From Terriglobia bacterium (GTDB taxonomy: Bacteria; Acidobacteriota; Terriglobia; JAJPHL01): a stretch of DNA of 64,000 nt. The DNA lies in the NCBI GenBank assembly GCA_021325275.1, contig JAJPHL010000055.1:62001-126000 (forward strand), written 5' to 3'. Each line of letters opens with the position of its first letter. Position 1 is the stretch's first letter. The position numbers and the translations under genes are program-made. Below are positions 6,738 through 32,823 of this stretch, one piece after another. The notes beneath the pieces are model-generated. The model did no database searches, had not been told where the DNA came from, and saw nothing but the letters and a program-made list of their open reading frames with translations.

Positions 6738-7124
6738 ATGACGAACGTAAGAAACTTAGGACTCACAATGCTTCTGGCGGCGCCACTGGCAATGGCCGCG
6801 GCCGGAATTAATCCGGGACTCGGCGCGGAATCGAGCGGACCACTGAAAGTGGCCGGCGAAGTCCAGATGCTGCGGATTGTCGACCAGGTCAAGCCGGTCT
6901 ATCCGGATTTGGCGAAGCTCTCGCGCACCGAAGGGACGGTGGTGCTTCAGGTGCTCATCAACAAAGACGGCGGCGTGACGAAAGTGGAAATCACTTCCGG
7001 CCCCGCTCTGTTGACGCGCGCCGCCAGCGATGCCGTGAAGCAGTGGAAGTACAAGCCGACCATCGTGAACGGTCAGGCGGTGGAAGTGATTACGTCGGTG
7101 TCGGTGCAGTTCCACATGCACTAA
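6738..7124 (+). CDS. TonB C-terminal domain protein (periplasmic)
   Basis: This 128-residue protein has a cleavable-looking N-terminal signal sequence and a TonB C-terminal domain: KPVYPDLAKLSRTEGTVVLQVLINKDG followed by AVKQWKYKP. The proline-rich spacer of true TonB is missing, so it probably does not span the periplasm and would not energise a receptor by itself. Stand-alone TonB-C proteins are common in Acidobacteriota. It sits between the MCP and cheW and is oriented with them. A role in sensing or in envelope attachment of the chemosensory machine is only a guess. Confidence 0.85.
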   Translation: MTNVRNLGLTMLLAAPLAMAAAGINPGLGAESSGPLKVAGEVQMLRIVDQVKPVYPDLAKLSRTEGTVVLQVLINKDGGVTKVEITSGPALLTRAASDAVKQWKYKPTIVNGQAVEVITSVSVQFHMH

Positions 7125-7141
7125 AAGGATAGGGGACTCGC

Positions 7142-7747
7142 ATGAGCTTCAAGCACGGATTTCGAACCAGCGCGCGCGGGCCGGCCTTCGCCACCGCACC
7201 GGAACCATCGCAACAAGCGGGCGTCCGCCAGTTGGTGACGTTCCATCTGGACGGTGAAGAATTCGCGGTGGAGATCCTGAAAGTTCAGGAAATCATCCGC
7301 CGCATCGATCCCACGCGCGTGCCGAACGCGCCGGACTTTGTGGACGGCGTGATCAACCTGCGCGGAAAAGTCGTGCCGGTGATCTGCCTGCGCAAGCGCT
7401 TCGGATTGCCCGCCCCGGAAAATACGGCCGCCGCGATGGGCCGCATCGTTGTCGTCGAAGTCGGCGGCACGGTGGCGGGACTGGCGGTGGACTCGGTGTC
7501 GGAAGTATTGCGCCTTCCCGAAGACACAGTGGAACCGCCGCCGCGCTTGGCGAAAGTGGATCGCGACTACGTGTGCGGCGTCGGCAAACTGCAAGACCGC
7601 TTGCTGATCCTGCTGGACGTCGACCGAATCCTGAGCGAAGCCGAAAAAAGCGCGCTATCGGGTAAGGAAGCCGCGCGTGAAACGAGCGCGCCGGTGGTCA
7701 ATACGCCCGTGAACGCGGCTCAGAACATTGCAATGAGCGTTGCCTAA
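7142..7747 (+). CDS. cheW: CheW scaffold protein
   Basis: This 201-residue cytosolic coupling protein links receptors to CheA. It contains the SH3-like CheW fold pattern: QLVTFHLDGEEFAVEI, VPNAPDFVDGVINLRGKVVPVI, GLAVDSVSEVLRL and the C-terminal LILLDVDRIL. About 28 residues precede the domain and about 35 follow it, so it is longer than the usual compact CheW. It starts 17 bases after the TonB-C gene with AGGGG upstream, and the second CheX-like gene follows 13 bases later. Confidence 0.93.
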   Translation: MSFKHGFRTSARGPAFATAPEPSQQAGVRQLVTFHLDGEEFAVEILKVQEIIRRIDPTRVPNAPDFVDGVINLRGKVVPVICLRKRFGLPAPENTAAAMGRIVVVEVGGTVAGLAVDSVSEVLRLPEDTVEPPPRLAKVDRDYVCGVGKLQDRLLILLDVDRILSEAEKSALSGKEAARETSAPVVNTPVNAAQNIAMSVA

Positions 7748-7760
7748 ACAGGAAAACTAA

Positions 7761-8315
7761 ATGGCTACGACATCTTTGGCACTTACACCGAACCAAGAAA
7801 CGCCGGGAGAATGGACGCCGGAACAGACGATCCGCCGCGCTCTTCCCTCGAACGCTGTCTGGATGCGCTTGCTGGAGGCAGCGACGCGCGAAGTTTTCCT
7901 GACCATGCTCGGTGAAGCGGCCGCGCCGGCGGTCTACGGCGACGACGACCAAACACCGACTCCCGACTTTACGGCATTGGTTGGTTTGTCCGGCGGCTTG
8001 GACGGCTGCTTGCGCGTGCGCTGCCAGGCGCCGGCCGCGTATCTGATGGGATCGCGCTTGGTCGGCATGCCGCTCGATCCGCAAGACTCGCTGGTCGTCG
8101 ACGCGCTCGGCGAAATCGCCAACATGCTCGCGGGAAATTTCAAATCGAAAATCCCGGGCCTCGCCGACGCCTGCCGCCTCTCGGTGCCCACCGTTTTCCA
8201 AGGCCAAGAATTCACCATGGAGTCGATGGCGCGCGGTGAAGTTCTGGAATCGTGCTTCCTGTTTCACGGCTCGCCGTTCTGGGTGAGTCTCGACCTGTGG
8301 CCGGAGGCCGCGTGA
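7761..8315 (+). CDS. CheX/CheC-like chemotaxis phosphatase 2
   Basis: This 184-residue paralogue of the protein at 4000 has Asp114, Glu118 and Asn121 in DALGEIANMLAG, the phosphatase signature. The two share the motif block and the following FKSKIP, but the N-terminal third differs, so they may act on different CheY-P pools. Its stop overlaps the GTG start of cheA in GTGA, giving translational coupling. Confidence 0.85.
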   Translation: MATTSLALTPNQETPGEWTPEQTIRRALPSNAVWMRLLEAATREVFLTMLGEAAAPAVYGDDDQTPTPDFTALVGLSGGLDGCLRVRCQAPAAYLMGSRLVGMPLDPQDSLVVDALGEIANMLAGNFKSKIPGLADACRLSVPTVFQGQEFTMESMARGEVLESCFLFHGSPFWVSLDLWPEAA

Positions 8316-10153
8316 GCAATCAAGATTTCAATCTGGCGCAAGATCCCGAGCTGCTGCGCGACTATCTCGCCGAGTGCGACGAGTTGCTGCAGCGCGTCGA
8401 TCAGGATCTCGTGGCACTGGAAGAAGCCGCCGAAGCGGAAGAGCAAAAAGGCTCGGCCGAGCTGATCAATCGGATTTTCCGCGCCGTTCACACCATCAAA
8501 GGCACCAGCGGTTTCATGGGACTCGACCAAATCGTCAGCTTGACGCACGAGGCCGAGGAAGTCCTGAACTCGCTGCGCAAACGCACCAGCGCCTTGCCGC
8601 AGGATCGCATGCGCAAGACGATGGACGCGCTGCTCGCCACGCACGATCACCTCCGCAAGATGATCGGGGATGTGCGCGACAACACGCCGCGCGTCTACAA
8701 CCTCGATTCGCTCATCGCGCGCCTGGCCGAGCTTCGTAAAGAAGTGGAATTGGACAGCGACCGTCCGTTGCTCGGCGAGATCATGGTGGTCGAAAAAGTG
8801 ATCAGCCGCTCCGAACTGCACGAGTCGCTGGCGGAAGCGGCGTGGGACGGCCGCAAGCTCGGCGAAGTACTAGTGGAAAAGAAGCTGGCGTCGGAATCGC
8901 AGGTTCGCGAAGCGTTGGGCAGGCAGTCGGGGCAAGCAGGCGTCCAGGAAACGTCGCGGACGATTCGCGTCGACACGGCAAAGTTGGACGAACTGCTGAA
9001 TCTGGTCGGCGAATTGGTGCTGGAACGGAATCGCCTCACGCGGCTCAGTTCCGATTTGCGCAACGGCAACGTGCAAGGCGAGGCACTGACCGAAGCGTTG
9101 GCCGAATCCACGGGCCGGCTTTCGTCGATCACCGAGGAATTGCAATCGGCCAGCCTGCGCACGCGCATGGTGCCGATCGACGCGGCGTTCCGGCGCTTCC
9201 CGCGCTTGGTTCGCGATATCGCGCACGGCTTGAACAAAGACGTGGAGCTGGCGATCCGCGGCGAAGAAACGGAACTCGACAAGAACGTGGTGGAACACCT
9301 GGCCGATGCGCTCGTGCATTTGTTGCGCAACGCGCTCGATCACGGCATCGAGCCGCCGGCGGAACGCGAAGCGGCCGGCAAGCCGCGCCACGGCTGCATT
9401 CTTCTGGAAGCGCATCAGGAAGGCGATCACATTGTGGTTTCGGTTTCCGACGACGGCCGCGGCATCGATCCCGCGCGCATCGGACGGAAGGCCCTGGAAA
9501 AAGGCTTGCTTTCGTCAGAGAGACACGCGGCCATCGAGAACAATCACACCGAATTGCTGAATTTGATTTTCCTCCCGGGATTCTCCACCGCCGAGCAGGT
9601 AAGCGACATCTCCGGCCGCGGCGTGGGCATGGACGTGGTCCGCGCGAATCTCGAAAAAATTAACGGCGTGGTGGAACTGGAAAGCGTCCAAGGCGAAGGC
9701 ACGTTGATCCGTCTGAAGCTGCCCTTGACGCTAGCGATTCTCCCCGTGTTGCTGGTGGGCGTGGCCAACGAAACGTACGCGCTGCCGCTGCGCTCGGTGC
9801 AAGAAATTGTTCGCGTGCCGCGCACGCAGACGCATCGCTTGGGCGGCGGCGAAATGTTCCGCCTGCGCGATCGCGTGATTCCGCTGCGTCATTTGCATGA
9901 TGCGTTTCGCGCCGAAAGCGTGGCAACGCGCCAAGAAAGCCGCGATCTTACGGTGGTAATCATCGGCGCCGCGGAAAAACGCGCCGGTGTAGTGGTGGAT
10001 CGACTGCTGGGACAAGAAGAAACCGTCGTGAAGCCGCTCGGCGAATATCTCGGGCACGTACCCGGAGTCGGCGGCGCGACAATCTCGGGCGACGGCATAG
10101 TGCGCTTGATTCTCGATCCCGCGACGCTGGTGGAAGAAGAGGAAGCTGCCTGA
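8312..10153 (+). CDS. cheA: CheA histidine kinase with an atypical linker module
   Basis: This 613-residue kinase starts at a GTG that overlaps the previous stop, with GGAGG upstream. Domains in order: HPt (phospho-accepting His60 in RAVHTIKGTSGF), a middle segment, a dimerisation helix pair (from about 220), HATPase (LRNALDHGIE; DDGRGID; GRGVGMDVV) and a C-terminal CheW-like domain. Where a P2 CheY-docking domain is usual, residues 153-205 hold two copies of an LGE-type repeat (LLGEIMVVEKVISRSEL and KLGEVLVEKKLASESQV). These resemble the N-terminal repeats of PilB/GspE (MshEN-like) ATPases, which in some members bind cyclic di-GMP. It phosphorylates CheY and CheB. Confidence 0.95.
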   Translation: MSNQDFNLAQDPELLRDYLAECDELLQRVDQDLVALEEAAEAEEQKGSAELINRIFRAVHTIKGTSGFMGLDQIVSLTHEAEEVLNSLRKRTSALPQDRMRKTMDALLATHDHLRKMIGDVRDNTPRVYNLDSLIARLAELRKEVELDSDRPLLGEIMVVEKVISRSELHESLAEAAWDGRKLGEVLVEKKLASESQVREALGRQSGQAGVQETSRTIRVDTAKLDELLNLVGELVLERNRLTRLSSDLRNGNVQGEALTEALAESTGRLSSITEELQSASLRTRMVPIDAAFRRFPRLVRDIAHGLNKDVELAIRGEETELDKNVVEHLADALVHLLRNALDHGIEPPAEREAAGKPRHGCILLEAHQEGDHIVVSVSDDGRGIDPARIGRKALEKGLLSSERHAAIENNHTELLNLIFLPGFSTAEQVSDISGRGVGMDVVRANLEKINGVVELESVQGEGTLIRLKLPLTLAILPVLLVGVANETYALPLRSVQEIVRVPRTQTHRLGGGEMFRLRDRVIPLRHLHDAFRAESVATRQESRDLTVVIIGAAEKRAGVVVDRLLGQEETVVKPLGEYLGHVPGVGGATISGDGIVRLILDPATLVEEEEAA

Positions 10154-11091
10154 TGACATCTTTGCCCCCTCCATTTCTCGATCCGGCCAAGGACGCATCG
10201 CCTTTCGATACGGCCAGGGAGGCCTCGGCGGTTCTCGCCGATCCATATTTGTTTCGGATTCGCGATCTGGTTTATCGCGCTTCCGGGATTTTTCAGCCCG
10301 ACAACAAGTTCTACATTCTGGAAAACCGCTGCGCCAAGCGCCTGGAGGCGCTCGGCATCACGTCGCTGTTCGAATACTTCCGCTTGCTCACAACCAGTTC
10401 GCGGCGCGAGTCGGAAATCCGTCTCCTGCTGAATGAAATCACGGTGGGCGAAACAAGTTTCTTCCGCAATCAGCCGCAACTCGACGCGTTTCGCAAAACA
10501 GTAATCCCGCAATTGGTCGAAGCGAAGGGGCGATTGGGCAATCGCCGCTTGACGATTTGGAGCGCGGGCTGCGCCACGGGCGAAGAACCATACTCGCTGG
10601 CGATGATGTTGGCCGAAGAGAGCCAAACCACGCTGCGGGGATGGTCGTGGAACATTTTCGCCGTCGACTTGAACGATCAGCGCCTGGAACAAGCGCGCGA
10701 AGGCGTGTACGGCGAGTACGCGCTGCGCAGCGTGACGCCGTATTACATGCAGAAATATTTCCGGCCGCGCAACGGACAGCATCAGGTGTGCGATGAAATC
10801 CGTTCGATGGTGACGTTCGAGCGCCTGAACATTCTCGACGACAGCCGGATGGTCTTCCTGAAGGGCCAGGACGCCATCTTTTGCTGCAATGTGCTGATCT
10901 ATTTCGGCGGCGAGCCGAAGCGCCGCGTGATCCAGCACTTTCACAACAACGTGAATTTGGGCGGATACCTTTTCCTCGGTCATTCGGAATCGCTGTTCGG
11001 CATCAACAACGATTTCCGCTTGCTCCATTTTCCGGGCTGCGTGGCGTATCGCAAGATCTCGCGCAAGCCTTCTCCGACGAGTGTGATATGA
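10153..11091 (+). CDS. cheR: CheR protein-glutamate methyltransferase
   Basis: This 312-residue SAM-dependent methyltransferase modifies MCP glutamates. The N-terminal helical CheR domain is followed by the SAM-binding segment WSAGCATGEEPYSLAM and by CNVLIYF, both characteristic. Start and stop are shared with cheA as TGATG, so translation is coupled. About 30 extra residues precede the family core. The MCP in this operon lacks a C-terminal pentapeptide, so methylation would not be tether-assisted. Confidence 0.95.
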   Translation: MTSLPPPFLDPAKDASPFDTAREASAVLADPYLFRIRDLVYRASGIFQPDNKFYILENRCAKRLEALGITSLFEYFRLLTTSSRRESEIRLLLNEITVGETSFFRNQPQLDAFRKTVIPQLVEAKGRLGNRRLTIWSAGCATGEEPYSLAMMLAEESQTTLRGWSWNIFAVDLNDQRLEQAREGVYGEYALRSVTPYYMQKYFRPRNGQHQVCDEIRSMVTFERLNILDDSRMVFLKGQDAIFCCNVLIYFGGEPKRRVIQHFHNNVNLGGYLFLGHSESLFGINNDFRLLHFPGCVAYRKISRKPSPTSVI

Positions 11092-16540: not shown

Positions 16541-18196
16541 ATGAAAACCACCCTATGTGTGTGCCTGCTCAACGTGACGGCCGTCTTCGCTCAGACCCCC
16601 GCCCAACCCGCGGCCGAGAAACCCCTGAAATTTGACCTTGCCGATGTGCACATCAGCAAGACCTCGCCAGGATTCGTGCAGAGCTTCGGCGGACAATTCC
16701 ACAAGGGCCGCTACGTCAACCGTGAAGCGACCATGCTCCAGTTGATTGCGGCGGCCTACGGCGTCAGCGACGATGCGGTCTCCGGCGGACCGGGTTGGGT
16801 GAGTTCCGACTTGTTCGATATTGTCGCCAAGGTCCCCGACGGAACCACGCGCGCGCAAGCGAACACGATGCTGAAAACACTACTGGCGGAGCGTTTCGGT
16901 CTAGAAGTGAAGAGCGGAAACAATCCCGTGCCGCGCTGGGTGCTGACGGTGGCCAAGGGCGGATCGAAACTGAAACCCGGAGGCGGCGAAGGGTCGGGAT
17001 GCACGCCGGAGCAGCAAGGACCACCACCCAATCAGAACGACTTGGCTTCCTTTCCAAACATCAAGGTGCATTGCCGCAATACCACCGCCACCGAGATCGG
17101 CAACAACCTGCGCCAATTCGCGGGCGCGTATCTCGATCATGACGTTGTCGATTCGACGCATCTGGAAGGCACGTGGAACGCCGACATCGAATGGACGGCT
17201 CGCGGACTCCTGGCCGGCAAAGGCGCCGATGGAATCCCGCTATTTACGGCGGTCGAGAAGCAACTCGGGCTGAAGTTCGATTTGCAGGACGTTCCGCAGC
17301 CATCGCTCGCCATCGTTCACGTCAACCGGACGCCGTCGCCGAATCCGCCGGACGCCATCGCTTTGTCGGAAGCGCCGCCTCGTTTTGAAGCCGCGACGAT
17401 CAAGCCGGCCGATCCCAGTGCGCCGCCGTTCGGAGGATTGCTCTACACGGGAGGCAGCCAAATGCACGCGGGCGGGACTCTCAGTGGACTTATCTCCATG
17501 GCGCTACAGATTCCAGGCAACGTGGCGAACGACATGATCATTGGCATCCCGAAATCGGTGGTCGATCAGCGCTGGGACATTCTGGCGAAGGTTCCCGCCA
17601 CGGGCGAAGGCGCACCGACGATCATCAACGGTCGTGCGACACCGCCGCCGTTCAGCGTGGCGTTGGAGATGCTCTACGGCCTGCTGCTGGAGCAATTTCA
17701 GTTGAAGACGCACTCTGAAAATCGCGAAGTCACAGTGTATGCGCTGACCCTCCCCACCGGCGGCAAGCCGAAAATGGCGCAGGCCGCGGAGTCCGAACGC
17801 GCCGGGTGCAAGCCCGATCCCAACGCGCCCAAGCCCGCCGCCAACATTCAATTCATGCTCTCCTGCAAGAACTACTCGATGGCCGAGGTCGCGCGTGATC
17901 TCCAACAGCGGGCCGGCGCCTACATCGATCATCCGGTGGTCGACGCGACGGGATTGCCTGGTGGATGGGATTTCCTGATCGGCTGGACGCCGAAGCAGGC
18001 GTTGCAGCAATCCGCACAAGCGGCTGCGACTGCGGCTGCAGCGGCGGGAGAAAAGACCGAAGGCGGGGCGGCCGATCCCGGGGGAATCACGGTCTTCGAA
18101 GCGGTGGAAAAGCAACTCGGGTTGAAGCTGGTCAAACAGAAGCGCACGATTCCGGTGATCGTGGTCGACCACGTGAGCGAAAAACCGGTGGAGTAG
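16541..18196 (+). CDS. Double-domain TIGR03435 family protein
   Basis: This 551-residue secreted protein has a short signal peptide (to about residue 18). Two homologous TIGR03435-like modules follow: about residues 27-260 (KFDLADVHISKTSPG to FTAVEKQLGLKFDLQ) and about 281-551 (RFEAATIKPADPS to FEAVEKQLGLKLVKQKR). Each has an EVAS/ATIKP-like start, an LLxERFGL or LLLEQFQL helix and a V-EKQLGL end. TIGR03435 proteins are expanded in Acidobacteriota, are often single-module, and have no known function. An ADOP permease follows 38 bases downstream, and such pairs recur in this phylum. Confidence 0.88.
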   Translation: MKTTLCVCLLNVTAVFAQTPAQPAAEKPLKFDLADVHISKTSPGFVQSFGGQFHKGRYVNREATMLQLIAAAYGVSDDAVSGGPGWVSSDLFDIVAKVPDGTTRAQANTMLKTLLAERFGLEVKSGNNPVPRWVLTVAKGGSKLKPGGGEGSGCTPEQQGPPPNQNDLASFPNIKVHCRNTTATEIGNNLRQFAGAYLDHDVVDSTHLEGTWNADIEWTARGLLAGKGADGIPLFTAVEKQLGLKFDLQDVPQPSLAIVHVNRTPSPNPPDAIALSEAPPRFEAATIKPADPSAPPFGGLLYTGGSQMHAGGTLSGLISMALQIPGNVANDMIIGIPKSVVDQRWDILAKVPATGEGAPTIINGRATPPPFSVALEMLYGLLLEQFQLKTHSENREVTVYALTLPTGGKPKMAQAAESERAGCKPDPNAPKPAANIQFMLSCKNYSMAEVARDLQQRAGAYIDHPVVDATGLPGGWDFLIGWTPKQALQQSAQAAATAAAAAGEKTEGGAADPGGITVFEAVEKQLGLKLVKQKRTIPVIVVDHVSEKPVE

Positions 18197-18234
18197 AGTG
18201 CAACATTTCGCGGCCTGGCGGTGTCTACCGCTCT

Positions 18235-20649
18235 ATGCGCATAGCATTCCGAATGTTCGTGCGCGACCGCCGCTTTGCGGTCGCGGCGCTGACGGCGATC
18301 GCCTTGGGCGTCGGCGGCGCCGCGGCGATCTTCAGCGTAGCGGATCGCAGCTTATTCCGCGCGTTGCCTTATCGCGACGGCGAGAGCCTCGTCAACGTCG
18401 GCGTGATCGCGCCCGTCCTCAACCAAAGACCCTTCGCACTCGCCGGAATGTATCGTGATTGGCGCGTGCAGCACACCCCGTTCACTTCAATGACCTCCTG
18501 GAAAGGAGCGGTCGCGTGCGACGAAGGTGCGGAAACGCAGCGGCGTTTGAGTTGTGCTCCGGTGGAAGCGAATTTCCTTGCGGTGTTGGGAATCGCGCCC
18601 GCTCTCGGGCATAGCTTCTCCGCCGACGACGATCAGCCGGGCGCGCCGCCAGTCGCGATTATCTCCTATCGCTTGTGGCGCGATCGCTTCGGCGCGAATC
18701 CGCAAATCCTCGGCTCCAACATCACGCTCGATGGCGCGACGAACAGAATTATCGGCGTATTGCCGGCCAGTTTCGAAACACCGGATCTTTCCACCGCCGA
18801 CATCTTAATGCCGGAACGCGAGCCGGGACCGGGACGCAGAAACGTAATGGTCCGCGTGATTGCCCGGCTCGCCCCGGGTTACACGGCGGAATCCTCGAGA
18901 GTCGCAGTGGATGGTTTGTTCCAAGTTTGGTGGAACGGTCTGCCGCCGGATTTGCGCAACGCGCTCGGATCCGTGCAACTGCGCATCGAGACGCTGCGCG
19001 ACGAGCAAATTCGCAACGATCGCGCGGCGTTGTGGATGCTCTTAGGGGTGGTCGCGGCGTTTCTGTTGATTGCATGCGCCAACACCGCGAATCTGGTACT
19101 CGCGCGATCGGCGAAGCGGCGGCAAGAATTTGCGGTGCGCGCCGCGTTAGGCGCTTCGCGCTGGAGACTGGCCCGCCAGCTTCTCAGCGAGGGCGCGATG
19201 CTCGGCGTGTTCGGCTGCGCGTTGGGATGCGTGCTGGCGACAATCCTGTTGCGGGTTGCCGTTGCGTTGGCGCCGGACGGGACACTCCGTTTGCGGCAAG
19301 CGTCGTTAGATCTGCGCGTCCTGCTTTTCGCGGCGACCGTTTCCATCATCACCGCGATCGCCTTCAGCCTACCCGCCATCCTCGACCGTCTGCGCGGCGA
19401 GGATTTCACCGGCACGCGCGCCACCGCCAAGCGGCCGTGGCTGCGGCAAGTGCTGGTGTCCGCGCAACTCGCGATTTCACTCACGCTCCTCACCGGATCG
19501 GGATTGTTGCTCGCGAGTCTCGACCGTCTTCGCAATGAGCCGCTGGGATTTCGCAAGGACGGCGTGGCGATGGCATCGTTTGTCCTGCCGCGTTCCCATT
19601 ACTCGGACAGCAATCGCGCCGTGAATTTCTTCAACGATTTGGAATCGCGAATCAAAACGCTGCCCGGCGTAACCGCCGCGGCGATTACCGACACGATTCC
19701 GCCGGGAAACGACAACGAGCACAGCCGTCCGTACGTTGGCTTGGCGCATCCCGGCGGCAGCGCGTCGGATCCCAACATGGGCGGCGAAGTCAGATGGCGC
19801 TACGTGACGCCCGGATATTTTGCCGCGCTCGGCGCGCCGATCTTGAACGGACGCGATTTTTCAGAGACGGACCGGACGCCGTCGAGTGTGAAGCCGGCGA
19901 TCATGAGCGAGTCGTTGGCCAGGCGGCTTTACGGCGGCGAGAATCCGATTGGGAAAGTCATCGCCACCTCGAATCCTTCATTCATGGTCATTGGAGTTGT
20001 TGGCGACGTGCGCAATTCCGGTCTGGGCGCGGCGCCTGAACTCGAAATGTACATTGTTCGCGAGAAAACGGCATCGGGAATCTTCCAAAATCAGGGTGGG
20101 AATTGCGGCTGGTGCCGCGCGGTGGCGATCGTGCGCTCGCCGCTCGACCACCGTGTCGCCGAAAACCTGGTGCGCGACGCCGTTCAGCAAATTGACCCGC
20201 AAATCGAAGTTGCCACCGAGAGCATGGACCAACATGTCGGCGGATTCTTGGCGCGTCCGCGCTTCCAGAGCGCGTTGTGGGCGGCCTTCTCGCTCACGGG
20301 CTTGCTGCTGGCGGCGATCGGACTGTATGGCCTGACGTCGTTTCTGGTCGCGGAGCGCACGCGCGAGATTGGCATTCGCATGGCGCTCGGCGCGCAGCGT
20401 GCCAACGTGATCCGCCACGTGATGGCCGACGGTTTCCGTTGGACCGTCGCGGGCACGCTCGCGGGTCTGGGATGCTCCGCGGCACTCTGGCGACTCCTGC
20501 GCGGTCTGCTGTACGGCATTCAAGCAAACGACTGGCGAGTCTCCGCGGCCGCCGCCGCCGTGCTGTTCGCGATTGCCATGCTGGCCGCGTACTTGCCCGG
20601 CCGTCACGCTTCGCGCATCGATCCCATGGTCGCGCTTCGTCATGATTAG
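18235..20649 (+). CDS. ADOP-like FtsX/MacB permease
   Basis: This 804-residue inner-membrane protein begins with TM1 (AVAALTAIALGVGGAAAIFSV), a MacB periplasmic core domain, a first FtsX three-helix block (about residues 265-425), a second periplasmic domain and a last FtsX block (ALWAAFSLTGLLLAAIGLYG to the end). This duplicated layout matches the acidobacterial duplicated orphan permease type, which usually lacks an adjacent ATPase gene, as here. The substrate and ATPase partner are unknown. The ATG at 18235 starts directly at the cytosolic basic helix. Confidence 0.9.
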   Translation: MRIAFRMFVRDRRFAVAALTAIALGVGGAAAIFSVADRSLFRALPYRDGESLVNVGVIAPVLNQRPFALAGMYRDWRVQHTPFTSMTSWKGAVACDEGAETQRRLSCAPVEANFLAVLGIAPALGHSFSADDDQPGAPPVAIISYRLWRDRFGANPQILGSNITLDGATNRIIGVLPASFETPDLSTADILMPEREPGPGRRNVMVRVIARLAPGYTAESSRVAVDGLFQVWWNGLPPDLRNALGSVQLRIETLRDEQIRNDRAALWMLLGVVAAFLLIACANTANLVLARSAKRRQEFAVRAALGASRWRLARQLLSEGAMLGVFGCALGCVLATILLRVAVALAPDGTLRLRQASLDLRVLLFAATVSIITAIAFSLPAILDRLRGEDFTGTRATAKRPWLRQVLVSAQLAISLTLLTGSGLLLASLDRLRNEPLGFRKDGVAMASFVLPRSHYSDSNRAVNFFNDLESRIKTLPGVTAAAITDTIPPGNDNEHSRPYVGLAHPGGSASDPNMGGEVRWRYVTPGYFAALGAPILNGRDFSETDRTPSSVKPAIMSESLARRLYGGENPIGKVIATSNPSFMVIGVVGDVRNSGLGAAPELEMYIVREKTASGIFQNQGGNCGWCRAVAIVRSPLDHRVAENLVRDAVQQIDPQIEVATESMDQHVGGFLARPRFQSALWAAFSLTGLLLAAIGLYGLTSFLVAERTREIGIRMALGAQRANVIRHVMADGFRWTVAGTLAGLGCSAALWRLLRGLLYGIQANDWRVSAAAAAVLFAIAMLAAYLPGRHASRIDPMVALRHD

Positions 20650-20830: not shown

Positions 20831-22300
20831 ATGCCCATGAAGACGCTGTTCTTGAATCCCCCCTCCTTCGAGCATTTCGACGCCGGAGCAGGCTCCCGTT
20901 GGCCGGCCTCGCGGGAAATCGAGTCGTACTGGTATCCGGTGTGGCTCTGCTATCCGGCGGCCATGTTGGAGGGCAGCCGCGTCCTCGACGCCCCGCCCCA
21001 TCACGTGAGCTGGGCGCAAACCGTCGAGATCGCGAAGGACTACGACCTGGTGGTGCTGTTCACATCCACGCCGGGATTCGAAAACGACGTGAAGATCGCC
21101 GAAGAACTGAAGGCCGCGAAGCCCTCGCAGAAAATCGCGTTCGTGGGACCGCACGTCACCGTCAAGCCGAACGAGAGCTTGATGGCATCGAACGCCATCG
21201 AATGGATCGGCCGCAAGGAATTCGATTACGCCGTCTACGAATACGCCCAGGGCAAGGATTTGTCGCAAATTGAAGGCGTGAGCTATCGCGGACCGGGCGG
21301 CGAAATCCGCCATAATCCCGATCGCTCGCAGGTGCAGGATCTCGACGCGCTACCCTTCGTCACCGACGTGTACAAGCGCGATTTCCAGATCGAGAATTAC
21401 AACGTTCCCTTCCTGCTGCATCCCTACGTCTCTTTCTATACGACCAGAGGCTGCCCGGCGCAATGCACATTCTGCCTGTGGCCGCAGACGCTCTCGGGAC
21501 ATCCCTGGCGCGTGCGGTCGTCGGACAACGTTGTCGAAGAAGTGAAGCGATGCATGAAGATGTTCCCGCAGATGAAGGAGATTTTCTTCGACGACGACAC
21601 GTTCAACTACAAAAAATCGCGCACGCTGGAATTGTGCGCCAAGCTGAAGCCGCTGGGCTTGACGTGGTCGTGCACGTCGCGCGTCACCACCGACCCGGAA
21701 ACGCTGAAGGCGATGAAAGACGCCGGCTGCCGCTTGATGATCGTGGGCTATGAAACCGGCGATCCGCAAATTCTCAAGAACATCAAGAAGGGCGCGACGC
21801 TCGAACAGGCGCGCAAGTTTACCAAGGAAGCGCATCGCCTCGGTCTCATCATCCATGGCGACTTCATCGTGGGATTGCCCGGCGAAACCAAGGCGTCCAT
21901 CGACGCCACGATCGCCTTCGCCAAGGAACTCGACTGCGAAACGATCCAAGTTTCCGTGGGCCACGCGTATCCCGGCACCGAGTTCCACCAGTATTTGACC
22001 GACAACAGTTTCCTCACCAGCAGCCTGATGACCGACGCCGGCGGCCATCAGCTTCCGCAAATGGATTATCCGGAATTGACCAAAGCCGACCTTATGGAAG
22101 CGGTGGAGCGTTTCTACGCCGAGTATTATTTCCGTCCGCGCACGGCGTGGCGCTTGGTGCGCAAGGCGCTCTCCGATTGGAACGAGTTCAAGCGCCTGGC
22201 CAAAGAAGCGCGCGAGTATATGGGACTGCGCTCGCAGCGCAAAGTTTTTGTGGCCGAGACGCGCGCGCACGCCGCCGCGGAAAAAGTTTCCGTGAATTGA
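20831..22300 (+). CDS. hpnJ: Hopanoid-associated B12-binding radical SAM protein HpnJ
   Basis: This 489-residue protein has an N-terminal cobalamin-binding-like domain (about 1-170) and a radical SAM barrel with the 4Fe-4S motif C208-x3-C212-x2-C215 (RGCPAQCTFC). HpnJ family members act in formation of the bacteriohopanetetrol cyclitol ether side chain. Identity rests on the overall family resemblance and on the hpnI-like glycosyltransferase 0.8 kb downstream in the same operon. An in-frame ATG at 20837 is an equally good start. Its stop overlaps the next ATG in TGATG. Confidence 0.85.
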   Translation: MPMKTLFLNPPSFEHFDAGAGSRWPASREIESYWYPVWLCYPAAMLEGSRVLDAPPHHVSWAQTVEIAKDYDLVVLFTSTPGFENDVKIAEELKAAKPSQKIAFVGPHVTVKPNESLMASNAIEWIGRKEFDYAVYEYAQGKDLSQIEGVSYRGPGGEIRHNPDRSQVQDLDALPFVTDVYKRDFQIENYNVPFLLHPYVSFYTTRGCPAQCTFCLWPQTLSGHPWRVRSSDNVVEEVKRCMKMFPQMKEIFFDDDTFNYKKSRTLELCAKLKPLGLTWSCTSRVTTDPETLKAMKDAGCRLMIVGYETGDPQILKNIKKGATLEQARKFTKEAHRLGLIIHGDFIVGLPGETKASIDATIAFAKELDCETIQVSVGHAYPGTEFHQYLTDNSFLTSSLMTDAGGHQLPQMDYPELTKADLMEAVERFYAEYYFRPRTAWRLVRKALSDWNEFKRLAKEAREYMGLRSQRKVFVAETRAHAAAEKVSVN

Positions 22301-22761
22301 TGAAGACTCGCATCATCCTGGCCGTAACGGTTGCCGAAAGCGTGGCCGGCAATCTGGCGTTGGGGCACGGGATGAAGCTGGTCGGTGACCTTTCCAAACT
22401 CCCGCCGCTGCGCATGGCGGTGGCGTCGGTGGCGGCGCTGTTCAATCCTTGGGTTGCGCTCGGCGTGGTTCTGCTGATCGCTTGGTTTCTCACTTACACA
22501 ACCGCCCTTTCGTGGGCCGATTTAAGTTACGTCGTGCCGACGACCGCGATCGGCTACGTGATCACCGCAATTCTCTCGTATTTCCTCTTGCATGAAACGC
22601 TGAGTCCCGCGCGGTGGGCGGGAACGGTGTTGATCGCCGCGGGCGTTGTGCTGGTGGCGCGCACCGATGTTACGACCACGCCATGCGAAGTGACTTCGGC
22701 GGCTGCCGAGACGGCCGTGCAGCTCGGCCATGTGGCCGCCGAGGAAGGCGGCGCGTCATGA
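22300..22761 (+). CDS. Half-size EamA/SMR-like membrane protein 1
   Basis: This 153-residue protein has about four TM helices (near 5-22, 45-68, 76-96, 103-120) and an EamA-type pattern (SYVVPTTAIGYVITAILSYFLLHETLSPARWAG). It is half the length of a classical ten-TM EamA permease, like small multidrug resistance proteins and the ArnE/ArnF pair. It is coupled to hpnJ (TGATG) and to the next gene (ATGA). A role in moving a hopanoid or lipid-linked intermediate is inferred from context only. Confidence 0.82.
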   Translation: MKTRIILAVTVAESVAGNLALGHGMKLVGDLSKLPPLRMAVASVAALFNPWVALGVVLLIAWFLTYTTALSWADLSYVVPTTAIGYVITAILSYFLLHETLSPARWAGTVLIAAGVVLVARTDVTTTPCEVTSAAAETAVQLGHVAAEEGGAS

Positions 22762-23123
22762 CCTGGCTTTTGGTGGCGCTGGTCGTGGGATCGACGGCGA
22801 TCGGTGAAGTGGCGATCACGCGCGGTATGAAGCAAACCGGCGAGATCGACGATTTTCGCCCAGGCGCCTGGCTGCGATCGTTGGGCCGCGCGTTTTCGAA
22901 TCCTTGGCTGATGCTCGGCGTCGGCGGAATGACCGTGGCTTTCTTCAGTTTCCTGATTCTGGTGTCGCACGAAGACTTGAGCTTCTCCGTGCCCGCCACG
23001 GCGGCGACGGTGGTGGCGCAAACGTTAGGAGCCCGCTTCATTTTGCGCGAGCGCGTAGGCGTGGCACGCTGGGCCGGAACGCTGCTGGTGGCGGCGGGCG
23101 TCTTGCTGCTGCGCGCGGCGTAA
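22758..23123 (+). CDS. Half-size EamA/SMR-like membrane protein 2
   Basis: This 121-residue protein has four predicted TM helices and is homologous in layout to the gene before it (FSVPATAATVVAQTLGARFILRERVGVARWAG). The two overlap by four bases, as expected for subunits of a heterodimer. It lacks the 30-residue polar tail of its partner. The hpnI-like gene follows two bases after its stop. Confidence 0.82.
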   Translation: MTWLLVALVVGSTAIGEVAITRGMKQTGEIDDFRPGAWLRSLGRAFSNPWLMLGVGGMTVAFFSFLILVSHEDLSFSVPATAATVVAQTLGARFILRERVGVARWAGTLLVAAGVLLLRAA

Positions 23124-23125
23124 AC

Positions 23126-24244
23126 ATGTTCCTGCTTGCGGCGCTGCTCGCGGCGGCGATCATCTACAACCTGATTGTGATTTGGGCGGCGGAAGATTTT
23201 CGCCGCCAGCCCGCGGCGCCTGGGCCCGCAACTTCTCCCGCATTTTCCATTTTCAAACCGCTGCGCGGTAATGATCCGTGGCTCTACGACTGCCTCGCGA
23301 CGTTTTGCCGTCTCGACTATCCCGAGTATGAATTGCTTTTTTGCGCGGCCGACGCCGATGATCCGGCGCTCGACGTGGCGCGGCGCTTGCAGCAGGATTT
23401 TCCGGCGGTGCCCATACGAGTTTTCACTGCGGATCGCCGGCACGGCGCGAATCGTAAGGTGGATAATCTCGACAAGATGCTTCGCGAGATGCGTCATGAG
23501 ATTCTAGTGATTTCGGACGACGACATATACGCGCCGCCCGATTATCTGCGCCGTTTGGCGGCTGAAATTGCGCCGGCGGAAGTTGCCACCGTGACGTGTC
23601 CATATCGCGGCCGACCCGGCGGGACGTTTGCGTCCACGATGGAAGCACTCGGCATTGCCGGTGAGTTTTTTGGCGGCGCGTTTGTGGCGCGCAAAATGGA
23701 AGGCGTGCGTTTCGCGATGGGATCGACGATCGCCGTGCGCAAGTCGCGCGTGGAAGAAATCGGCGGATTCCCGGCTCTGGCCGATTATCTCGCCGACGAC
23801 TACGAGCTGGGCGCGAGACTAGCCGCGCGCGGATATCGCAACGTGATGCACACAATGATTGTGGACACGCAACTGCCGCCCGACACGTGGTCGTCGATGC
23901 TGGCGCATCAGTTTCGCTGGATGCGCACGCAGGCGATCTCGCGCCCCGGCGGACATTTGGGGCTCGGCGCGACGTACGGATCGCTTTGGTCCTTGGTATT
24001 GCTCGCCGCAAAGCCGGAGTGGTGGCCGCTCGCCGCGTTGTGGGCCGGTTCGCGCTGCGCGGCCTGTTGGTGGGCCGGCGCGCGCACGCTGGACGATCCC
24101 ACGGTGCGCCGCTGGTGGTGGCTGGCTCCTGTGCGCGAACTGCTTACGGCGGCGTTGTGGGTGGCGAGCTTGGTGCGCCGCACAGTGGTGTGGCGCGGCG
24201 AGCGCTATCGCGCTGATCGCGGAAAAATGGTCAGAGTGGAGTAA
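23126..24244 (+). CDS. hpnI: Hopanoid-associated glycosyltransferase HpnI-like
   Basis: This 372-residue membrane glycosyltransferase resembles ceramide glucosyltransferases (GT2/GT21). It has an N-terminal TM helix, FKPLRGNDP, ISDDDIYAPPDYL (metal-binding DxD region), the acceptor-site Asp pair in LADDYELG, and HQFRW (the Q/RxxRW motif), then two or three C-terminal TM helices. HpnI transfers N-acetylglucosamine to bacteriohopanetetrol; the neighbouring hpnJ supports that reading. No hpnK-type deacetylase is found here. Confidence 0.85.
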   Translation: MFLLAALLAAAIIYNLIVIWAAEDFRRQPAAPGPATSPAFSIFKPLRGNDPWLYDCLATFCRLDYPEYELLFCAADADDPALDVARRLQQDFPAVPIRVFTADRRHGANRKVDNLDKMLREMRHEILVISDDDIYAPPDYLRRLAAEIAPAEVATVTCPYRGRPGGTFASTMEALGIAGEFFGGAFVARKMEGVRFAMGSTIAVRKSRVEEIGGFPALADYLADDYELGARLAARGYRNVMHTMIVDTQLPPDTWSSMLAHQFRWMRTQAISRPGGHLGLGATYGSLWSLVLLAAKPEWWPLAALWAGSRCAACWWAGARTLDDPTVRRWWWLAPVRELLTAALWVASLVRRTVVWRGERYRADRGKMVRVE

Positions 24245-24895
24245 ATGGAGAACGAAGTACACGTCTGGCAAATCGCGCTGGACACGCTTCCGCCCGGTCG
24301 CGAACGCATCCTTTCCGCGAGCGAGTGCGATCGCATGGCGCGCTTCCACTTCGAACGCGATCGAGGGCGATATGCGGCGAGTCACGCGGCGTTACGGCAG
24401 ATTCTGGCGAGATATGCCGGCGGCGAACCGGCGGCGCTTGAGTTCACGGCGGGCCCGGGCGGCAAGCCGGCGCTCGAACCGAAAATGAATCCTTTGGGGA
24501 TTTCGTTCAATCTATCTCATTCCGGGGATCTCGCGATGGTCGCGGTGGCCCGGGGACGCGACGTTGGCGTCGACGTCGAGCGAATTCGCGGCGACATTGA
24601 GGCGCTGGAAATCGCGCGGCGCTTTTTCGATCCTGCGGAAGCGGCGGAGCTTGCGGCGCTCGCGCCCGATGCGGCTGATGGCGCGTTCTTCGCACTGTGG
24701 ACTCGCAAGGAAGCGTTGCTGAAGGCGCGCGGACTGACGCTCGGTGAGGGATTGCATCACGCCCCAGCCGAAGCCGCCGGCTACACGGTCCAAGGCATTG
24801 ACGCGCCAACGGGCTATGCGGCGGCGGTCGCGGCCGCGGGCAGCGGCTGGACGCTACGAACGTTTCAATTCTCTGATAAGACTTCCAGACCGTAG
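24245..24895 (+). CDS. 4'-phosphopantetheinyl transferase (Sfp/AcpT type)
   Basis: This 216-residue enzyme moves phosphopantetheine from CoA to a carrier protein serine. Both family signatures are present: GVDVE (metal-binding) and FFALWTRKEALLKARG. The two-lobed length is that of Sfp rather than of AcpS. It begins directly after the hpnI stop codon. The only carrier protein visible in the window is the ACP at 51443, a possible but unproven client. Confidence 0.93.
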   Translation: MENEVHVWQIALDTLPPGRERILSASECDRMARFHFERDRGRYAASHAALRQILARYAGGEPAALEFTAGPGGKPALEPKMNPLGISFNLSHSGDLAMVAVARGRDVGVDVERIRGDIEALEIARRFFDPAEAAELAALAPDAADGAFFALWTRKEALLKARGLTLGEGLHHAPAEAAGYTVQGIDAPTGYAAAVAAAGSGWTLRTFQFSDKTSRP

Positions 24896-29128: not shown

Positions 29129-30352
<1,224 letters not shown>

Positions 30353-30400
30353 AATCGCTTCTCCTCGTTCCAGGTCAGTCCTGCGCCGCGTCTTGCGCGA

Positions 30401-31213
30401 CTATTCCTGCTCGCCGTCTTGTGACGCCAGTTCCGATTCCACGCTGGGCAGCGTGGGCAGCACTTCCCTGGCGATCGAGCGCGACGGAACCACTTGATCA
30501 AGGCGAATCCGGCCGTCCTTGAAGATCACCGTGCGCTTCGCGTATGCCGCGATATCCGGCTCGTGCGTCACCATGATGGTGGTGATGCCTTCTTCGTTGA
30601 GATCCTGGAAAATGTCCATGATCTCCACCGATGTCCGGCTGTCTAGATTGCCCGTCGGCTCATCGGCCAGCAAAATCGCTGGACTATTCACGAGCGCGCG
30701 TGCGATGGCGACGCGTTGCTGTTGTCCGCCCGAGAGTTGGCTCGGGAAATGGTGCTCGCGGCCTTTCAATCCGACACGCGTCAGCGCGCGCATCGCCCGC
30801 TCGTGACGTTCTTTCGTCGGAATCGCCGAGTAGATGCACGGCAACTCTACGTTTTCCATCGCCGTGGTCCGCGCCAGCAAGTTGAATCCTTGAAAAACGA
30901 AACCGATGCGCCGGTTGCGGATGTGCGCGAGATCCACTTTGTTCAAAGTGGAAACGTCGGTGCCTTCCAGAATGTACGATCCCTTGGAAGGACGATCGAG
31001 GCAGCCGACGATGTTCATGAACGTCGACTTGCCGCCGCCGGATGCGCCCATGATGGCGACGAACTCGCCTTTGTTCACGTCGAGCGAAACGCCGCGCAGC
31101 GCGTGGACTTTCTGTTCGCCCAGATCGTAGATCTTGTGCACGCCCTCCATATGGATGACGTTGCCGCGGCGCGTGTTGACCTCAGGCGTTGCCGGAATCG
31201 ATGCGGTGGCCAC
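30401..31213 (-). CDS. MacB/LolD-type ABC transporter ATPase
   Basis: This 270-residue ATPase has Walker A GASGGGKST, Q-loop VFQGFNLL, signature LSGGQQQRVAIARAL, Walker B ILLADEPTGNLD and the switch His in MVTHEPDIA. The family core starts at the ATG at 31150. A GTG at 31213 with AGGACGG upstream, just after the adaptor stop, gives better coupling and was chosen, adding 21 residues. The C-terminus has about 30 extra residues after the last helix. It powers the permease encoded downstream. Confidence 0.9.
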   Translation of the reverse strand: MATASIPATPEVNTRRGNVIHMEGVHKIYDLGEQKVHALRGVSLDVNKGEFVAIMGASGGGKSTFMNIVGCLDRPSKGSYILEGTDVSTLNKVDLAHIRNRRIGFVFQGFNLLARTTAMENVELPCIYSAIPTKERHERAMRALTRVGLKGREHHFPSQLSGGQQQRVAIARALVNSPAILLADEPTGNLDSRTSVEIMDIFQDLNEEGITTIMVTHEPDIAAYAKRTVIFKDGRIRLDQVVPSRSIAREVLPTLPSVESELASQDGEQE

Positions 31214-31215
31214 GG

Positions 31216-32823
31216 TTACCGTCCTGGACCGCGTCCGCCCGGTTGTCCGAATCCGCCGCGTCCGCCCGGTTGATTGAATTGTCCTGTGGCCGCGCGATTC
31301 GGAATCGCCATGCCGGTGATGACGTTGTCGCCGGGGTTCAGCGTTCCGTGCAAAATCTCGATGCACGCGGTGAACGTGTAGTCGGTGATGCTGGTGCGAA
31401 CTTCCACCGGCTCCATTTGCTTGTCGCCGACCAGTTTCCAGACGATGTGCCGTTCGATAGCGCCGCGCTGCGGCTTCATAGCCATGCCCGCGGCCAGATC
31501 GGCCGCGCCGCCGGCTTGTCCGCCACGTCCGCCACCGCCTCCGCGCTGGCCGCCAGCGCCGCCACCGCCGGGTCCACCTGCGCCCGGTCCACCGGCTGCG
31601 GGACCGCCTTGTCCGCCGCCACCGCCGCCTGCAGGTGCGCCTTGTCCACCGCCCTCGCCCGAGGACGCCATGCCTTTGCCCTTGCCGCCGCCGGGAATCG
31701 GGATGCCGGCCTTTTGGTAGGCCGCGTTGCGTTCATCGTCGGGAATATCGGGCCGGAAACGCACTGCGCCGTTCGGCAGCTTGATCGTATCCTTCACTTC
31801 GCCGATCGGAATCGTGATGTATGCGGTCATACCGGGCAGCAGTTTGCGTCCGGGATTATCGAAATCCACCACGGTGTCGTAGGTCACCACGTTCTGCACG
31901 GTCGTCGCGTTCAAGCGAACTTCGCGAATGGTTCCGTTGAACGTGTCTTTCGGAAATGCGTCGACCTTGAAACTGACCGGGCCGCCTTTTTTGAGATTAC
32001 CCACGTCGCTTTCGTCGGTGGCCACGTCCACTTGCATCCGGTCGAGGTTCTCGGCGATGGTGAAAAGGGTGGGCGCGGACATCGACGCCGCCACCGTTTG
32101 CCCGACGTCAACCGAGCGCGCGACCACCGTGCCATCGATGGGCACGTAGATCACGGTGTGATCGAGGTTCACTTGCGCGGCATCGAGCGCGGCCTTCTTC
32201 TGCGCCACTTGGGCTTTGGCTTGCTCCACCTGCGCGATCTGCGATTGCAGTTTCGCCTGCGCCTGCTCATACTGCGCTTGGGCGGCTTCGGTCAACGCGT
32301 GGTTCGAATCGAACGTGGCCTGGTCGACTTCCAGTTGCTGCTGTGGAATGATGCCCTGCTTGGTCAAATCCTTGGAGCGATTGAGCGCCAGTTGCGTTTG
32401 CACTTCCATCGCCTTGGCCTTTTCCAGGTTGGCCTTTTGCGTGGCGATGTCGGCGCGTTCCACCATCACCTGCGTCTCCAGCGATTTCTGGTTGGCGAGG
32501 GCATTATCCCTGTCGGCCTTGGCCTGGTCGACCGCCGCTTGAAACAGGGACGGCTCGATGCGCGCGATCACATCCCCCTTGTGCACTTGATAGTTGTAGT
32601 CGGCGTAAAGTTTGTCGATATTGCCGGACACCTGCGATCCCACTTGCACCAAATGCGTGGAGTTGATGGTTCCGGTGGCTTGCACCACGGAGATGACGTC
32701 GCCTTTTTCCACCTTGGCGGTGAAAAAAGTACGCTCTTGCTTGCGAGCCATTGCAACGGCCAATACCACGAGCGCGATCACGGCGGGCAGGCCAATGAAA
32801 ATCAGCCAGCGATTTCGATTCAT
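31216..32823 (-). CDS. MacA/HlyD-family periplasmic adaptor with Gly-rich insert
   Basis: This 535-residue adaptor has an N-terminal membrane anchor (7-25), lipoyl-like halves (GTINSTHLVQVGSQVSGNI and TVIYVPIDGTVVARSVDVG), a long coiled-coil hairpin (about 95-220) and a beta-barrel. The oddity is residues 377-439, about 63 residues made almost only of Gly, Ala, Pro and Gln, inserted before the last membrane-proximal segment; a second short Gly/Arg-rich tail ends the protein. The adaptor would link the MacB-like pump to a TolC-type channel. Confidence 0.9.
   Translation of the reverse strand: MNRNRWLIFIGLPAVIALVVLAVAMARKQERTFFTAKVEKGDVISVVQATGTINSTHLVQVGSQVSGNIDKLYADYNYQVHKGDVIARIEPSLFQAAVDQAKADRDNALANQKSLETQVMVERADIATQKANLEKAKAMEVQTQLALNRSKDLTKQGIIPQQQLEVDQATFDSNHALTEAAQAQYEQAQAKLQSQIAQVEQAKAQVAQKKAALDAAQVNLDHTVIYVPIDGTVVARSVDVGQTVAASMSAPTLFTIAENLDRMQVDVATDESDVGNLKKGGPVSFKVDAFPKDTFNGTIREVRLNATTVQNVVTYDTVVDFDNPGRKLLPGMTAYITIPIGEVKDTIKLPNGAVRFRPDIPDDERNAAYQKAGIPIPGGGKGKGMASSGEGGGQGAPAGGGGGGQGGPAAGGPGAGGPGGGGAGGQRGGGGGRGGQAGGAADLAAGMAMKPQRGAIERHIVWKLVGDKQMEPVEVRTSITDYTFTACIEILHGTLNPGDNVITGMAIPNRAATGQFNQPGGRGGFGQPGGRGPGR

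Follow-up and report, generated by a model that had tools for sequence, protein, structure and literature searches.

In a genome assembly of Terriglobia bacterium (Acidobacteriota), two short genes for EamA-type membrane proteins lie between hpnJ and hpnI, the genes of two hopanoid head-group enzymes, which raises the question of what these proteins contribute to hopanoid biology. HpnI depends on UDP-GlcNAc, and HpnJ on SAM, an iron-sulphur cluster and cobalamin, so both are expected to assemble the head group at the cytoplasmic face of the inner membrane. Any product destined for the outer leaflet or the outer membrane then has to traverse the inner membrane. This crossing of a sugar-bearing hopanoid is a step without an established protein. 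Here we analyse the locus within a 64,000-nucleotide stretch of that genome (the window) and compare it with hopanoid loci of Acidobacteriota, Nitrospirota-type bacteria and Pseudomonadota.

Gene organization in the window

Five genes on the plus strand, each overlapping or abutting the next, form a row that resembles a translationally coupled operon. The first, hpnJ (20831..22300; 489 aa; TIGR03471, 748 bits, cut-off 577.6), encodes a B12-binding radical SAM enzyme, the maker of the cyclitol ether head group. It is followed by two genes for half-size EamA/SMR-fold subunits, eamA1 (22300..22761; 153 aa) and eamA2 (22758..23123; 121 aa), by hpnI (23126..24244; 372 aa; TIGR03472, 332 bits, cut-off 310), encoding the GT21-type glycosyltransferase that adds GlcNAc to bacteriohopanetetrol (BHT), and by a gene for a 4'-phosphopantetheinyl transferase (24245..24895; 216 aa; Pfam ACPS, 55.7 bits). 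The hpnJ/eamA1 junction reads TGATG, the last base of the hpnJ stop codon being the first of the eamA1 ATG, and eamA1 and eamA2 share a 4-nt overlap, ATGA. The coordinates, the overlap and the HpnJ and HpnI scores bear out the original prediction of two half-size, four-helix EamA genes between hpnJ and hpnI. The phosphopantetheinyl transferase gene is probably co-transcribed with hpnI; it had no match in other hpnJ neighbourhoods. The neighbouring gene at 17965-20649 encodes an ADOP permease (737 bits). A few kb away from the hopanoid genes, at 29129-32823 on the minus strand, a MacB-like permease, an ABC ATPase and an HlyD-like adaptor were recognised by eye.

A search of the window's own genome with family models identified HpnH and two copies of squalene-hopene cyclase over the cut-off, so extended hopanoids should be made. 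No HpnK above the cut-off was found in this search, in agreement with the report of hpnI and hpnJ without hpnK in subdivision 1 and 3 Acidobacteria (PMC5462960), and the product of HpnI and HpnJ in this genome is accordingly uncertain. Another locus encodes an acidobact_VWFA protein, which, with the ADOP permease, marks the genome as most likely acidobacterial. The genome also carries a second EamA pair (locus L209, G000:C13:98500-118400, about 6858-10560), convergent with genes for an HpnI paralogue (283.6 bits, below the cut-off) and an ArnT-like glycosyltransferase (588 aa); these genes possibly constitute a separate lipid-sugar system.

Conservation of the EamA pair in Acidobacteriota

Among 396 genomes of the phylum, HpnJ matches were obtained in 63, of which 62 were credible, and 60 neighbourhoods were fetched. 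Both EamA genes are on the hpnJ strand in 49 of the 60, as a rule 0-1.6 kb after hpnJ, and the encoded proteins show 30-48% identity to those of the window, with invariant residues. Of the 62 genomes with hpnJ, 58 carry the pair, in nearly all cases adjoining hpnJ, hpnK or hpnI; in one genome (G130) it is ~8 kb from hpnJ, and in another (G195), where hpnJ is on a 6-kb contig, it is on a different contig. The EamA2 profile scores at least 132 bits in these 58 genomes, and the best score in the about 334 hpnJ-less genomes is 111 bits, a gap that is inflated, partly by construction, as the profile was built from hpnJ-linked sequences; the linkage is therefore the independent evidence. Pair-bearing genomes represent eight families (f1, f2, f3, f12, f34, f52, f72 and f79), but most of the 62 hpnJ genomes come from one of them, f2, and hence are not independent.

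Gene order varies among families. The order hpnJ-eamA1-eamA2-hpnI is found in the window, f3 and f52; hpnJ-hpnK-eamA1-eamA2-hpnI in members of f12, f34 and f79; and hpnJ-eamA1-eamA2 in f2. In two genomes with hpnJ on another contig, the order is hpnK-eamA1-eamA2-hpnI (G291) or hpnK-eamA1-eamA2 (G267). The pair tracks whichever head-group genes are present and not one particular gene. In six genomes without hpnJ (five of f30, one of f41), a single EamA gene comes after hpnK, and hpnI precedes these genes in the row unless it is on another contig; all six genomes encode a squalene-hopene cyclase over the cut-off. No fused EamA1-EamA2 was seen, the long EamA2 ORFs (for example, in L084) being an open frame that continues upstream.

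Most f2 genomes contain only 2 to 4 EamA2-profile matches (E<=1e-6) in 3.4-6.4 Mb, and we estimate that two matches would fall beside hpnJ by luck in about 1 in 1000 genomes or fewer. Given this rarity, the recurrence in 49 of 60 neighbourhoods, the 30-48% identity and the invariant residues, the association is not due to chance, and the linkage to hpn genes, that is, membership in the hopanoid cluster, is conserved.

In f2 (L057:4489-8119 and about 30 similar loci), hpnJ-eamA1-eamA2 is immediately preceded by genes for a periplasmic adaptor of the RND/MacA type, a TPR protein and a TolC-like outer membrane protein. HpnN above the cut-off was not found in the Acidobacteriota tested, and because HpnN is missing, this set may carry hopanoids to the outer membrane.

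EamA genes in Nitrospirota-type loci

The second set comprised 20 hpnJ loci from the phylum of the genome holding L159 (Nitrospira sp.). An EamA gene is located near hpnI or hpnJ in 18 of these, on the same strand in 15, and in L271 an EamA pair is right behind hpnJ. The gene-order survey had been set beforehand as a refutation test of the original prediction, which survived it: the EamA genes, paired or single, follow hpnJ, hpnK or hpnI across two phyla.

Many of these loci match the hopanoid cluster of Leptospirillum ferriphilum, in which an EamA-like protein has been listed, without comment (PMC12654047). Apart from that entry, our search of mostly open-access literature found no proposal of an EamA pair as a hopanoid flippase. 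The single EamA proteins of nine Leptospirillum-type loci (L274, L276, L279, L280, L282-L284, L288 and L289) have a Glu near the position of EmrE Glu14 and a strong one-sided charge bias; a second EamA beside such a charge-biased protein was sought in the Leptospirillum-type loci and not found.

HpnL occupies the equivalent position in other loci

In Burkholderiaceae, hpnK is followed by a gene for a lysylphosphatidylglycerol-synthase-domain protein, which is HpnL (TIGR03476, 328 bits; PF03706, 69.5 and 77 bits). The survey also covered 80 named genome contigs that carry hpnJ, almost all of them from Pseudomonadota: HpnL is encoded in 63 of these loci and EamA in none; several of the remaining 17 loci stop at a contig edge. 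Pseudomonadota were also rejected as carriers of the pair by profile search, the best EamA2 score in 398 genomes being 73 bits. In Acidobacteriota, an HpnL-like gene is beside hpnJ only in two genomes (G029 and G278), both without the pair; in a third genome that lacks the pair (G192), such a gene is on another contig. The sole HpnL-like gene of the Nitrospirota-type set is in L277. HpnL was detected in L086, L075 and L277, and EamA in none of the three.

In Pseudomonadota, and in a handful of loci from Acidobacteriota and the Nitrospirota-type set, the slot by hpnI, hpnJ and hpnK that the EamA pair takes elsewhere is occupied by HpnL, a protein of about 350 aa from an unrelated family (PF03706, with a flippase-like domain). 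HpnL and EamA are mutually exclusive at the surveyed loci of all three groups: none contains both. Two pair-bearing genomes (G265 and G291) have a weaker HpnL-like gene elsewhere. We take PF03706 to be the family of the lipid flippase domain of MprF. The presence of such a domain in MprF is described in PMC8131360, and the function of hpnL itself is described as not established (PMC12583986), so that the argument from displacement is no stronger than the flippase-like label of HpnL.

Two further arrangements emerged from this survey. Paraburkholderia loci, including L119, L120, L124 and L140, contain hpnJ, a gene for an HpnI-like glycosyltransferase and one for a divergent HpnL-like protein (94-129 bits), in addition to the standard hpnI-hpnK genes or close to them; this second arrangement possibly serves a different hopanoid head group. 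A plasmid of Lawsonia intracellularis (L105, 7001-8464) encodes an HpnJ-like B12 radical SAM protein (32% identity) in a setting of genes for glycosyltransferases and methyltransferases.

Family membership and predicted structure of EamA1 and EamA2

EamA1 exceeds the cut-off of the Pfam EamA family (PF00892; 34.2 bits, cut-off 28.2), and EamA2 falls just under it (26.5 bits), with some of its relatives scoring 28.2-29.2. Neither window protein matched Multi_Drug_Res (PF00893) at E<=0.1, and phmmer searches of the PDB with the single proteins yielded no significant match. Homology between EamA1 and EamA2 is clear from hhalign (E 9e-38), and judging from their sequences, the two are ancient paralogues. 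In a tree built from a short alignment, with many weak forks, the EamA2 sequences group together, along with the second genes of pairs from cyclase-less genomes (see below), EamA1 is paraphyletic around EamA2, and the hpnI-hpnK singletons fall outside.

AlphaFold2 models of both subunits (pLDDT 86.7 for EamA1 and 91.4 for EamA2) have four membrane helices and an extra helix between helices 1 and 2, and both contain the four-helix, EmrE-like fold unit of the EamA/DMT superfamily. The best structural matches are EmrE and Gdx of the small multidrug resistance family, with Z 11-12 over 102-109 residues (for EmrE, Z 12.0 with EamA1 and 11.6 with EamA2), and the EamA1 model matches SLC35B1 with Z 11.0; scores of 11-12 are suggestive for helical bundles, and here the sequence agrees. 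The profile match of EamA2 to EmrE is weak (E 4e-4, probability 35%).

The closest characterised lipid flippases with this fold are ArnE/ArnF, of the SMR lipid subtype, which flip undecaprenyl-phosphate-Ara4N, that is, an amino sugar on a lipid (PMC9574504). Like the EamA pair, ArnE/ArnF are two half-size, four-helix subunits encoded by adjacent genes in a lipid head-group operon, and an amino-sugar lipid would be the likely cargo of the EamA pair as well. The predicted resemblance holds at the profile level (hhalign to ArnE, E 2e-7 and 6e-7 for the two subunits), but the pair is not ArnE/ArnF proper: scores with the equivalog models NF011625 and NF002816 (ArnE, 14.1 and 18.1 bits; ArnF, 14.0 bits) are far below 92 and 99, the neighbours are hpnJ and hpnI in place of an arnBCADT operon, and the expected lipid is hopane instead of polyprenyl phosphate.

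The two families also differ in helix 1. At the position after a Gly, EamA2 has Glu17, which is Asp or Glu in all 49 relatives, and EamA1 has Asn18, which is Asp in 39 of 49 relatives and Asn in 10, whereas ArnE/ArnF, like the hpnI-hpnK singletons, have Gln. In an alignment anchored on this Gly, the pair mostly has uncharged residues where EmrE has Glu14, and its conserved acid comes about one helical turn later.

The positive-inside charge bias indicates a strongly N-out EamA2 and a near neutral to N-in EamA1. The mean bias is -7.5 for EamA2 and +0.55 for EamA1, the latter only weakly positive and below zero in 19 of 49 proteins before counting the N-terminus; EamA1 is above EamA2 in all 49 pairs. 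The hpnI-hpnK singletons have a bias of -2 to 0. The singletons match the rule that single SMR subunits have a neutral charge bias and paired subunits have opposite ones (PMC9574504); the pair follows it in part, with an EamA1 that is near neutral and not clearly positive.

Proposed function and alternatives

Given an SMR-type dimer beside head-group genes and its replacement by a PF03706 protein in other phyla, a flippase is the best reading. We consider it likely that the EamA pair is a fixed-topology heterodimeric flippase with an EmrE/DMT fold that moves a sugar-bearing hopanoid and stands in for HpnL. We infer this mechanism from gene position, conservation, family, predicted fold, the differing charge bias of the subunits and the mutual exclusion with HpnL. 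HpnI, HpnK where present, and HpnJ would build the head group at the cytoplasmic leaflet of the inner membrane, and the resulting BHT-glucosamine or BHT cyclitol ether would be transferred to the periplasmic leaflet by an antiparallel heterodimer of EamA1 and EamA2. A lateral opening would allow the hopane skeleton to remain in the bilayer, as proposed for ArnE/ArnF, with the polar head held in the dimer pocket near the conserved helix-1 acids. These acids may pair with the amine of the glucosamine or cyclitol or couple transport to protons. The linkage and the exclusion of HpnL support the predicted movement of a hopanoid; the cargo, originally thought to be an intermediate, would be better described as an end product or a late, amine-bearing product, because HpnI, HpnK and HpnJ are all expected to act in the cytoplasm. 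HpnN, an RND exporter from an unrelated family that is likewise encoded in hopanoid operons, moves hopanoids to the outer membrane and is the only protein with a shown role in hopanoid transport (PMC12583986).

Related pairs are present in four genomes (G169, G074, G215 and G201) without squalene-hopene cyclase, hpnI or hpnJ, so the family is not exclusive to hopanoids. Such cyclase-less pairs (L214, L215, L216 and L217) have toxin-antitoxin, helicase, kinase or outer membrane efflux genes nearby. Together with the L209 pair, they suggest that the family as a whole probably transports several kinds of lipid-linked sugar. An alternative for the pair at hpnJ is that it flips a polyprenyl-phosphate sugar, like ArnE/ArnF, with the adjoining hopanoid genes using or feeding that carrier. 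The profile similarity to ArnE and the company of an HpnI paralogue and an ArnT-like enzyme at L209 fit this explanation, but we judge it unlikely: HpnI is reported to glycosylate BHT itself (PMC12583986, citing Schmerk 2015), the examined neighbours in hpnJ/hpnI operons included no recognisable gene for an ArnT-like enzyme or a polyprenyl-phosphate transferase, and where the pair is missing, its slot is taken by HpnL and not by an Arn-type gene.

The same gene linkage would be compatible with movement in the opposite direction at an earlier step, that is, with the pair bringing BHT from the outer to the cytoplasmic leaflet for modification by HpnI and HpnJ, and SMR-fold proteins can work both ways. 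This is quite unlikely, given that the cytoplasmic side is also the expected site of BHT synthesis (by HpnH and HpnG), so that no import is needed, and that the helix-1 acids would suit an amine-bearing product better than BHT. Constant co-location, and genes that overlap or abut hpnJ and hpnI in the window, could also point to a non-transporting membrane scaffold or a subunit of these enzymes; the partner genes differ between families, the slot is elsewhere filled by HpnL, a member of a flippase-type family, and the fold is a transporter fold, which together make such a role highly improbable. An ordinary drug or metabolite exporter, in the operon by happenstance, is barely plausible: the fold alone is that of EmrE-type exporters and Pfam assigns only EamA, but the linkage recurs in two phyla and at least eight families, HpnL is excluded, and the pair is devoid of a conserved acid at the Glu14 position of EmrE. 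Because the survey is dominated by f2 and the family label of HpnL carries the displacement argument, we regard the proposal of a hopanoid-lipid flippase as well-supported comparative evidence and not as proof.

Implications for hopanoid transport

Hopanoids correspond in bacteria to sterols and have given rise to a vast molecular fossil record. In Acidobacteriota and Nitrospirota, EamA would perform the role that HpnL probably has in Pseudomonadota. At a somewhat less than even chance, flipping of sugar-bearing hopanoids may be a dedicated step performed by two unrelated, interchangeable proteins: in Pseudomonadota this would be HpnL, and in Acidobacteriota and Nitrospirota EamA, either as a homodimer or as an acid-bearing heterodimer that arose from a single gene by duplication. 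If the proposal is true, HpnL gains a function and the first hopanoid flippases are defined, and the swap of HpnL for EamA would be part of the explanation for how Acidobacteriota get by without HpnN and HpnL.
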